Positions 34,022 through 37,148 of a stretch of 64,000 nt of DNA are shown here, one piece after another. Both the position numbers and the translations under genes were made by a program. Each line of letters begins with the position of its first letter. The first letter of the stretch is position 1. The notes beneath the pieces are model-generated. The model made no database searches, had not been told where the DNA came from, and saw only the letters and a list, made by a program, of their open reading frames with translations. This stretch comes from Planctomycetota bacterium (GTDB lineage Bacteria > Planctomycetota > Phycisphaerae > Phycisphaerales > SM1A02), in contig JADFKZ010000002.1 of the NCBI GenBank assembly GCA_022564665.1, positions 1-64,000 of the forward strand, given 5' to 3'.

Positions 34022-34534
34022 CTACTCTTCGGCGGCAAAGAGCCGCTGCTGATTTGGCAGATTCTTTGGCCGGGCCTTGAGTTGGTCCAGCTCGTCTGCG
34101 AACTCGTCGAGCGTGCGGAAGTCGTGGTACTCGCTGGCGTAGCGAATGTAGGAGATCTCGTCGATCTCCCGCAGCAGGGAGGCCACGAACTTGCCGATCT
34201 CGGCGCTGGGCACCTCCCGCTCGAACTCGCGGTGGACCCGCGCATCGATCTCCCGGGCGAGCTTGAGCTTGACCTCCTCCGATACGGGCCGCTTGCCGCA
34301 CGCCGCCTGGAGGCCCACGAGCACGTTGTTGGAGTCAAAGGGCACCCGGCTCCCGTCTTTCTTGATAACCATCAGCCTTGAGGTCTTCTCCACCCGCTCG
34401 TAGGTGGTGAACCGCTGCCGACAGCCGCCGCACTCCCGGCGCCGGCGGACCGCCTCGCCGTTCTCCGAAGCACGGCTGTCAATAACCCGATCCTTGTCTC
34501 GCCCGCAGTAGGGACAGATCACGTCGAAGTCCAT
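34022..34534 (-). CDS. nrdR: Transcriptional repressor NrdR
   Basis: Zinc-ribbon plus ATP-cone repressor of ribonucleotide reductase genes. The 170 residues start M-D-F-D-V-I-C-P-Y-C-G-R-D-K-D, with the second cysteine pair C-G-G-C near residue 35, then R-F-T-T-Y-E-R-V-E. The ATP-cone follows (V-I-K-K-D-G-S-R-V-P-F-D). ATG 34534 is where the family starts. No nrd gene or obvious NrdR box lies in this window. Divergent from thrS. Confidence 0.94.
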   Translation of the reverse strand: MDFDVICPYCGRDKDRVIDSRASENGEAVRRRRECGGCRQRFTTYERVEKTSRLMVIKKDGSRVPFDSNNVLVGLQAACGKRPVSEEVKLKLAREIDARVHREFEREVPSAEIGKFVASLLREIDEISYIRYASEYHDFRTLDEFADELDQLKARPKNLPNQQRLFAAEE

Positions 34535-34859
34535 CGCTCCCCCTGAGAGCCAAGGGCTTGCGGGGGCAGTCGTGGGCATCCGGTCATAAGCAGATGCAAA
34601 ATGTGGCAGTGCCCAGCGGTGCCACCCCATCATCTTGATGGTTTGGGCCCAGCCCGTCAACCGTGTCCCGGGTGCCGCCGCCTCCCCCGGCCAACTTCTT
34701 TTTCTGTCAGCCCCTTGGCATCCATGTTCCTACGCCGCCAGGCGTCCTGCCGGGCGCGGCTGGGGCCGGGGCCAGCCTGCCGCGCTCTGGCTGATCGCCG
34801 ACCGCCGACAGCCACAAAACGCCACGGGCGGCTCAAGCACCGGACCCCTCCAGGCCGAA
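34535..34859. other. Intergenic stretch between nrdR and the thrS promoter
   Basis: No gene seen. It contains TTTTTCTGTCAGCCCCTTGG (starting near 34699), related to a stretch at 39129-39158, and CGCCGACCGCCGACAGCC near 34790, both of family A. The nrdR promoter must be here but I cannot point to it. Confidence 0.4.
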
Positions 34860-34887
34860 TTGACCTCTCCCAGCGGTGAGGTATGCT
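34860..34887 (+). promoter_or_regulatory. Promoter of the thrS leader transcript
   Basis: TTGACC (34860-34865), 16-base spacer, TATGCT (34882-34887). Transcription would begin near 34893-34895. If this is the only promoter, the leader peptide would start at ATG 34898, almost leaderless; starts at 34883-34892 would require an upstream promoter. Confidence 0.5.
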
Positions 34888-34888
34888 C

Positions 34889-34969
34889 GTGATGATCATG
34901 TTGAGCGTGCTCTTGGAGACACCAGGCACGACCGCCACGGCGATCACGACAACCACCCGGCAGGGGTGA
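34889..34969 (+). promoter_or_regulatory. thrS leader peptide (Thr-rich attenuator ORF)
   Basis: A short ORF ending TGA 34967-34969. From E onward it reads E-T-P-G-T-T-A-T-A-I-T-T-T-T-R-Q-G: eight Thr codons, four of them consecutive (34946-34957). Starts are possible at 34883, GTG 34889, ATG 34892 or 34898; GAGG at 34878-34881 fits 34889 or 34892 as the start. It lies between a promoter-like pair and a terminator, directly upstream of threonyl-tRNA synthetase, and has the layout of E. coli thrL-type leaders. Confidence 0.78.
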
Positions 34970-34971
34970 CG

Positions 34972-35030
34972 GCTGTCGCGCGGACATGACATCGAGCATC
35001 AGGCGCGGCGGCGGAGCCGTGCCTTTTTTT
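34972..35030 (+). terminator. thrS attenuator: antiterminator and terminator stems
   Basis: The terminator is GGCGCGGC (35002-35009), loop GGCGGA, GCCGTGCC (35016-35023), then seven Ts (35024-35030). The competing antiterminator pairs GCTGTCGCGC (34972-34981) with GCGCGGCGGC (35003-35012) over ten positions, two of them G-U. The two share the 5' arm of the terminator, so only one can form. A ribosome at the leader stop codon would cover 34972-34981; one stalled on the Thr run would not. Confidence 0.78.
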
Positions 35031-35066
35031 CTCTGACACCGTGAGGACCCTCCAGGGATCGCACTC

Positions 35067-37148
35067 ATGCCCCGCATCACGCTGCCTGACGGCAGCGTCC
35101 GCCAATACGATCGGCCGGTCACGGCCGCCCGGCTCGCTGCCGACATCGGTCCGCGGCTCGCCGCCGCCGCTCTCGGCGTCCGGATCAACGGCGAGCTGAG
35201 GGATCTGAACACCCTCATCCAGGAGGATGCCCAAGCGTCGATCGTGACCCCCACCGATCGTTCGGGCGCGACCGATCCCGACGCGGTGTATCTTCTGCGC
35301 CACAGCTGCGCCCACATCATGGCTGAGGCGATCCAGGCGCTGCGACCGGGTGTGCAGCTCGTCTACGGGCCGCCGGTGGACAACGGTTTCTTCTACGACC
35401 TTTCTGTTCCCCACGAGCGGCCGCTCTCGACCGACGACTTTGAGGAGATCGAAAAACGGATGGCGGCGATCGTCACCCAGGACAGGCCCTTTACCCGCTA
35501 CGAGATGCCCGTCAAGGAAGGGCTTGAGAAGCTGCGGGCCGAGGGCAGCAAGTACAAGATCGATAACGCCGATCGGGCGATCGCGCAGGGGGCCGACCGG
35601 CTCAGCTTCTATGTGACGGGAGAGCCGGGCAAGGATTGGGAGGACCTCTGCCGCGGGCCGCATGTGCCCTCGACGGGCCGCATCGCAGCGTTCAAGGTCA
35701 TGAGCCTTGCGTCGAGCTTTTGGCACGGGGATGCGACCTCCGACCGCCTTACCCGTGTCTACGGCATCGCCTTCGCGACGCCCAAGGAGCTGGCGGAGCA
35801 CCGCCGGATGCTCGCCGAGTCCAGGAAACGCGACCACCGGCGACTGGGTCGGCAGCTGGAACTCTTCGCCTTTGATGAGGACGTGGGGCCGGGGCTGGTG
35901 CTTTGGACCCCGGCGGGGGCCGTCATACGCAGGGAGCTGGAGGAGTTCATCCGAGGCGAGCTGCTGAGGCAGGGGTATCAGATGGTCTATACCCCGCACA
36001 TCGGCAAGCTCTCCCTTTTTAAGACCAGCGGCCATTACCCCTATTACCGCGACAAACAGTACCCGCCGATCGTTGACGCCGACCAGATCCAATCGCTGGC
36101 TCGCCAAGGGGTGAGCTGCGCCGAGCTGGCCGACCGCCTCCAGCAGGGAGACATTGACGGCTACCTGCTGAAGCCGATGAACTGCCCCCACCACGTCAAG
36201 ATCTATGCCAGCCGTCATCACAGCTACCGGGACCTTCCGGTCCGCCTCGCCGAGTTCGGGACCGTCTACCGTTGGGAGCAGTCCGGCGAGATTGGAGGCC
36301 TCACGCGAGTGCGCGGGCTCACGCAGGACGACGCGCACCTGTTCTGCACCGAGGACCAGATCCCCGCCGAGCTCAAAGCCTGCCTGGCGCTGGTGAAAAT
36401 CATCTTCACCACCCTCGGGTTGACCGACTACCGGGTCCGCATTGGCCTCCGCGACCCCGCCTCCGAGAAGTACGTTGGAGACGCTGGACTGTGGAAGAAG
36501 GCGGAGCAGGCGTGCCGCGAGGCGGCCCGCTCACTGGATGTCCGAGTCGACGAGGAGCCCGGTGAGGCCGCGTTTTACGGGCCCAAGATCGATTTTATGA
36601 TCAACGACGTCATCGGCCGTGAGTGGCAACTGGGAACGATCCAGGTCGACTACAGCCTGCCCGAGCGCTTCGACCTCACCTACACGGGACCCGACAACCA
36701 GCCGCATCGCCCGGTCATGATTCACCGCGCGCCCTTCGGATCAATGGAGCGGTTCGTCGGCATGCTCATCGAGCACTTCGCGGGGGCCTTTCCGACCTGG
36801 CTCGCTCCGGAGCAGGTCCGGGTGCTCCCGATCAGCGACAAGTCCACCGGCTACGCGCGGTCCGTCCTGGCGACCCTTCATGACAGGCAGATTCGGGCCA
36901 CCATGGACGACGGTCACAGCCGCATCCAGGCCAAGATCAAGGTCGCCGCCGACTGGAAGATCCCCTACATGCTGGTGGTCGGACCTTCCGACCAGCAGGC
37001 GACTGCGGTGAGCGTTCGGGCTCGCGGCATCCAGCAGAACCTGGGCTCGCTCGAGCTGGGAGCGTTTGCCGAGTCGATCACCGCCGAAATCACCAGTCGG
37101 GGCAGGGCTACCGTCATCTCGGAGCACTTCGCCGCCGCCAAGATATAG
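35067..37148 (+). CDS. thrS: Threonyl-tRNA synthetase
   Basis: Class II aminoacyl-tRNA synthetase. The 693-residue protein has the TGS domain (residues 1-65), the editing/SAD domain with H-S-C-A-H-I-M-A-E near 78, the catalytic core with motif 2 (T-V-Y-R-W-E-Q-S-G near 408), M-N-C-P-H-H zinc region near residue 374, motif 3 (H-R-A-P-F-G-S-M-E-R near 560), and the C-terminal anticodon-binding domain. Preceded by the Thr attenuator. A hairpin with six Ts (37148-37197) follows. Confidence 0.95.
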   Translation: MPRITLPDGSVRQYDRPVTAARLAADIGPRLAAAALGVRINGELRDLNTLIQEDAQASIVTPTDRSGATDPDAVYLLRHSCAHIMAEAIQALRPGVQLVYGPPVDNGFFYDLSVPHERPLSTDDFEEIEKRMAAIVTQDRPFTRYEMPVKEGLEKLRAEGSKYKIDNADRAIAQGADRLSFYVTGEPGKDWEDLCRGPHVPSTGRIAAFKVMSLASSFWHGDATSDRLTRVYGIAFATPKELAEHRRMLAESRKRDHRRLGRQLELFAFDEDVGPGLVLWTPAGAVIRRELEEFIRGELLRQGYQMVYTPHIGKLSLFKTSGHYPYYRDKQYPPIVDADQIQSLARQGVSCAELADRLQQGDIDGYLLKPMNCPHHVKIYASRHHSYRDLPVRLAEFGTVYRWEQSGEIGGLTRVRGLTQDDAHLFCTEDQIPAELKACLALVKIIFTTLGLTDYRVRIGLRDPASEKYVGDAGLWKKAEQACREAARSLDVRVDEEPGEAAFYGPKIDFMINDVIGREWQLGTIQVDYSLPERFDLTYTGPDNQPHRPVMIHRAPFGSMERFVGMLIEHFAGAFPTWLAPEQVRVLPISDKSTGYARSVLATLHDRQIRATMDDGHSRIQAKIKVAADWKIPYMLVVGPSDQQATAVSVRARGIQQNLGSLELGAFAESITAEITSRGRATVISEHFAAAKI

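Follow-up and report, generated by a model that had tools for sequence, protein, structure and literature searches.

A threonine-rich leader upstream of thrS in Phycisphaerae is very probably a ribosome-mediated transcription attenuator

Introduction

The classical leader-peptide attenuators of proteobacteria control the trp, his and thr operons as well as pheST with pheM. As pheST demonstrates, this type of regulation can act on a synthetase gene. According to a survey published in 2010, leader-peptide attenuators were known only from Proteobacteria and Actinobacteria, to which hisS/hisZ of Firmicutes were added (PMC2965389). Candidate attenuators of leuS and trpS were reported for a few Streptomyces species (PMC1262725). 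A leaderless leader ORF has a precedent in trpL of Sinorhizobium meliloti (PMC7298713) and is discussed for ilvBNC of Corynebacterium glutamicum (PMC11857589).

Here, we describe a leader located upstream of thrS in a planctomycete. All positions refer to the window, i.e. the whole analyzed stretch of 64,000 nucleotides (contig JADFKZ010000002.1). The leader resembles the classical attenuators in having an ORF rich in cognate codons, 1:2, 2:3 and 3:4 stems, an intrinsic terminator and a gene for the same amino acid; it differs from them in its occurrence in a planctomycete class, in its target thrS and in a leader ORF which is probably leaderless. No sequence relationship to these systems was detected beyond a sub-threshold score for the Rfam family RF00506 (Thr_leader, enterobacterial thrABC), in which a Thr-codon leader is likewise followed by a terminator. 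The weak full-length alignment of RF00506 to positions 34928-35031 reached 16.6 bits (E = 1), well short of the 55 bits set as gathering score, and membership was rejected; furthermore, RF00506 controls biosynthesis genes whereas the leader described here precedes thrS. The Streptomyces leuS and trpS candidates also consist of a leader ORF, an antiterminator and a terminator in front of an aminoacyl-tRNA synthetase gene (PMC1262725), but they concern other amino acids and another phylum. The leader ORF shares with S. meliloti trpL its position at the 5' end of the transcript, which was reported for this Trp biosynthesis leader of an alphaproteobacterium (PMC7298713) and is predicted for the thrS leader. 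The kind of mechanism is known, and the combination of phylum, gene and probable leaderless start is, as far as checked, new. An earlier sequence-only reading of the window, which had proposed a complete threonine attenuator, knew of no case for thrS in planctomycetes; full-text literature searches gave no leader-peptide attenuator in planctomycetes or at thrS either, with a limited coverage of subscription journals that does not establish priority.

Results

The thrS gene (35067-37148, plus strand) encodes a threonyl-tRNA synthetase with four Pfam domains (TGS, tRNA_SAD, class II core and anticodon-binding). No second thrS was found in the genome. The nrdR gene is divergent from the thrS leader and starts near 34534, in agreement with its earlier assignment to the other strand.

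A sigma-70-type promoter, TTGACC-N16-TATGCT, was located by a pattern scan at 34860-34887 on the plus strand (TTGACC at 34860-34865, TATGCT at 34882-34887), exactly where the sequence-only reading had placed it. It is the sole promoter-like match between 34300 and 35600 (0.1 in shuffles), and TTGACn-N16/17-TAnnnT occurs at equal distance from the leader ATG in many relatives of the families f1, f4 and f11. Downstream on the same strand lies the leader ORF MLSVLLETPGTTATAITTTTRQG (34898-34969), which comprises 23 codons and ends with TGA at 34967-34969; Thr-rich leaders are also found at the thrS genes of relatives. It has eight Thr codons, at 34919, 34928, 34931 and 34937 and in a row of four at 34946-34957; their number, the row of four and the stop codon had been recognized correctly before. 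The row of four on the plus strand is the stall site predicted from the sequence and from folding with a positioned ribosome.

The best start codon of this ORF is the ATG at 34898, located 10 nt after the -10 element; another ATG at 34883 sits inside this element. When 67 leaders were aligned on the in-frame ATG nearest to the Thr run, a TANNNT hexamer was found to end 5-11 nt before the ATG in about 56 of them (sum of counts) and only rarely at other distances, and a Shine-Dalgarno core was present in just four of the 67. Since the -10-like hexamer ends so close to the ATG, the predicted 5' UTR amounts to about 0-6 nt across the leaders and about 3-4 nt in the window leader. The leader ORF is thus probably read from a leaderless mRNA, as judged from promoter position and not from mapped ends.

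The RNA downstream of the stop codon can adopt two mutually exclusive structures. The intrinsic terminator (35001-35030, plus strand) consists of a stem of nine pairs, a 6-nt loop and seven Ts, and its pairs covary in 35 leaders. It had been described as 35002-35023 plus seven Ts; folding confirmed its presence and extended the stem by one pair on each side to 35001-35024, with T7 at 35024-35030 and a free energy of -18.8 kcal/mol. The antiterminator pairs GCTGTCGCGC (34972-34981) with GCGCGGCGGC (35003-35012) over ten positions including two G-U pairs, as proposed, with -19.2 kcal/mol, and shares the 5' arm of the terminator. Arm 3 (35001-35012, plus strand) thus combines the terminator 5' arm (35001-35009) with the antiterminator 3' arm (35003-35012). 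Arm 2 (34972-34983, plus strand), which was delimited by folding and arm permutation, contains the antiterminator 5' arm. In the minimum-energy fold without a ribosome, arm 2 pairs with arm 1 (34932-34941, plus strand), which is located inside the Thr-rich segment, and the resulting 1:2 stem excludes the antiterminator. In the folding model, all three classical stems (1:2, 2:3 and 3:4) are therefore present; stalling on Thr codons would break the 1:2 stem, and the three-stem logic is complete. Both this stem and the probable leaderless start are additions to the earlier description.

The exposed RNA was also folded with a ribosome whose 3' edge was assumed to reach 12 nt beyond the first A-site base. 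For the window leader, the probability of the terminator, P(terminator), was 1.00 for a ribosome that sits on the stop codon and covers most of arm 2, and also 1.00 without a ribosome. With the A site in the row of four Thr codons, P(terminator) was 0.00 at 34946, 0.17 at 34949, 0.67 at 34952 and 0.97 at 34955. The switch is strong only at 34937, 34946 and 34949 (0.00-0.18), not at the last two Thr codons, and the other Thr codons gave values of 0.5-0.97. The geometry had been predicted to let the terminator form with a ribosome at the leader stop and to leave the first antiterminator arm free with a ribosome stalled on the Thr run; the folding model agrees with this for the best stall codons. 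It is within this model only that the ribosome at the stop codon masks the antiterminator and the stalled ribosome does not.

The same calculation for 77 leaders resulted in a mean P(terminator) of 1.00 at the stop codon, 0.71 for ribosomes stalled on the last four Thr codons and 0.81 without a ribosome, a state which is not uniformly terminating across clades. Shuffled spacers with a stalled ribosome gave a mean of 0.953 +- 0.015; P(terminator) fell below 0.5 in 24 native leaders versus 2.7 in the shuffles. For 37 of the 77 leaders, the value fell within the bottom 5% of the shuffles of that leader, and equilibrium folding does not predict the switch in all relatives.

Conservation was analyzed at the thrS loci of 58 relatives, which were picked by protein homology alone. 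A locus was scored for a Thr-rich run (at least five of eight codons) and for a GC-rich terminator within 330 nt upstream. Both parts occurred together at 22 loci, neither occurred at 36, and in no case was only one of them present (22/0/0/36; Fisher p ~2e-16, uncorrected for phylogeny). In one of the 22 positives, L135 (G057), the terminator is accompanied by a degenerate Thr run, and this locus was omitted from the folding tests. The sequence-only reading had held that relatives keeping thrS with neither a Thr-rich ORF nor paired stems would speak against it. Such relatives do exist, among them G023 with 70% thrS identity, so the element is patchy; both parts are missing together in these 36, as expected for the gain or loss of one unit.

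Gene order differs between the two groups. In 12 of the 36 negatives, nrdR is the immediate upstream neighbor on the same strand (at 15-124 nt), and in 11 it is divergent within 210 nt; among the positives, nrdR was never found within 300 nt. In L010, L022, L023, L112, L113, L118 and others, nrdR directly upstream on the same strand coincides with the absence of both leader and terminator. Leader regulation of thrS thus seems, from these sequences, to have been gained or lost along with gene order.

Whole-genome searches were carried out with two covariance models. Model R1, which was built from 14 leaders, gave 24 matches at E ~1e-6 or lower in 298 genomes of the class; 20 of them are located directly upstream of thrS, one further match (L143) ends at a contig edge and the remainder are unrelated. 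Besides f1, these matches comprise the families f2, f4, f5, f6 and f11, the latter from outside the order; a leader of family f3 was found via thrS homology. Hence, no fewer than seven families share the arrangement at thrS. The window leader was matched in its own genome with E 3e-19, the next best match having 0.01. The broader model R2, built from 35 leaders and scanned over 301 genomes of the order, matched in 120 of these at E <= 1e-5. Comparison with thrS positions and fetched DNA revealed that nearly all strong matches are at thrS and that many weaker ones are elsewhere. Among 77 distinct leaders which were read, thrS is located downstream in 75, the exceptions being L143 at its contig end and L341. 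Thus, dozens of genomes of the order carry the element ahead of thrS, and within the class it also occurs there in a single further family.

False matches within the class were L148, L152, L162, L163, L308, L317 and L323. L163 (G019:C15:38504-38573) is a long run of Thr codons near the N-terminus of an ORF which we take to be an IS66-like transposase, and is probably a chance or repeat-derived match. A search of 392 genomes of the phylum gave, among the matches outside the class whose DNA was read, none at thrS; these were mostly ends of genes for Asp-, Glu- or His-rich proteins, often followed by terminators. In this sample of sequences, the element looks confined to the class. When the regions preceding pheS, hisS and ilvB were scanned in a similar way in 30 relatives, no convincing cognate leader with a terminator was revealed, the scan of ilvB being weak as runs of Ile, Leu and Val are common.

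Pairing was further analyzed across the leaders. In 35 leaders aligned to R1, 94.3% of the terminator cells were paired and two-sided changes occurred in nine of the ten pairs; none of 500 shuffles was as good and no slid register came near, with the reservation that the alignment was fitted to the structure, which favours it. In most clades, arm 2 is adjacent to the stop codon or overlaps it, with differing sequences, and arm 3 changes along with arm 2; arm 2 follows the stop codon in f1 and f4, and in f2 and f11 it spans the stop codon or sits just ahead of it. The native antiterminator arms had a mean energy of -16.6 kcal/mol as compared to -14.7 +- 0.4 kcal/mol for arms permuted among leaders (1/20000); when each clade was represented by one leader, the median rank was 0.04, and the f6 clade gave little or no support. 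These shuffle and permutation tests include no correction for phylogeny. The spacing from stop codon to terminator ranges from 24 to 48 nt with a median of 31.

Some additional observations concern neighboring genes and database records. In a subset of family f2 (L309, L311, L312, L316, L318 and L319) and in L037, a small zinc-ribbon gene of about 77-86 aa is located between leader and terminator on the one side and thrS on the other. The three encoded proteins that were tested match DUF6487 (PF20097), one of them below the cut-off; the gene may be co-regulated with thrS. L341 (G791:C119:30066-30186) carries a Thr leader and a terminator before a similar zinc-ribbon gene, and the fetched stretch contains no thrS, which looks as though the unit had been separated from thrS. 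The leader L038 (RHKP01000022.1), filed under 'Cyanobacteria bacterium', is identical to that of the f2 genome G747, contig C23, and this record looks mislabelled.

Discussion

The leader is a conserved ORF with eight Thr among 23 codons, followed directly by thrS, with an intrinsic terminator between ORF and gene and an antiterminator sharing the 5' arm of this terminator. In all likelihood, it constitutes a ribosome-mediated transcription attenuator which would sense charged tRNA-Thr and control thrS. Leader-peptide attenuation, as put forward by the sequence-only reading, is supported by gene specificity, conservation, terminator covariation, arm swaps and ribosome-position folding with shuffles.

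Alternatively, the Thr-rich ORF might be translated and act mainly via re-initiation or through protection of the RNA against Rho, the terminator being constitutive. It has indeed been proposed that short upstream ORFs enhance translation of the gene that follows (PMC4833913), and the terminator dominates the equilibrium folds of many relatives even with a stalled ribosome. We nevertheless consider this explanation very unlikely: the leader stop codon is about 75-390 nt away from thrS with the terminator in between, too far for simple re-initiation, the enriched residue is Thr at thrS specifically, and native antiterminator pairing exceeds that of permuted and shuffled controls. Less likely still is that another RNA sensor operates here and the Thr-rich ORF is incidental. 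Such a sensor could be a T-box, which controls thrS in Firmicutes (PMC2494555), or, as in E. coli thrS, an operator to which ThrRS binds; autoregulation by the E. coli enzyme is mentioned in a passage of PMC2965389. No Rfam family including T-box reached its gathering threshold over the window, nor was any T-box found at E <= 5 in 34800-35120. Furthermore, every terminator-bearing thrS locus among the 58 carries a Thr-rich run, and the spacing between stop codon and terminator is tight.

A chance arrangement in a GC-rich intergenic region, with a terminator serving an upstream gene, would at first sight be favored by the fact that stretches of five consecutive ACN codons are no rarity in this genome. 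The pattern ACN5 occurs 33 times, fewer than a reversed control pattern, and runs of four or five Thr codons are common; the Thr run alone was consequently rejected as evidence. As raw ACN5 runs are common, the case for the attenuator rests on conservation and structure instead of on the run. The comparative data already contradict coincidence by the recurrence at thrS in at least seven families, and with nrdR being divergent, no upstream gene on the thrS strand is known to need a terminator. This explanation is therefore extremely improbable.

For the attenuator, we infer the following order of events from sequence and folding model. Transcription would begin either at the leader ATG or a few bases upstream of it, with a translating ribosome trailing RNA polymerase. 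With plentiful Thr-tRNA, the ribosome would reach the stop codon at 34967 and cover arm 2; arm 3 would then pair with arm 4, resulting in termination at about 35030. With scarce Thr-tRNA, the ribosome is expected to stall on the Thr codons; arm 1 would thereby be disrupted, and arm 2 would remain available for pairing with arm 3, which would block the terminator and allow transcription of thrS. If the ribosome is absent, arms 1 and 2 would pair and the terminator would form.

This switch would require the first ribosome to stay close behind RNA polymerase; hence, the thrS leader offers a compact genetic means of testing for coupling in this phylum. For Gemmata, which belongs to a different class of planctomycetes, a spatial segregation of transcription and translation has been reported (Gottshall 2014, as cited in PMC5287468 and PMC5394234), and the main wider value of the finding lies in the close coupling it implies for a phylum with such a report. 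In addition, the thrS leader, which a single covariance model detects in dozens of genomes, may serve as a natural system for leaderless leader ORFs. For the organism itself, sequence comparison and folding point to a threonine-sensing switch that very probably lets this planctomycete raise threonyl-tRNA synthetase when charged tRNA-Thr is low.
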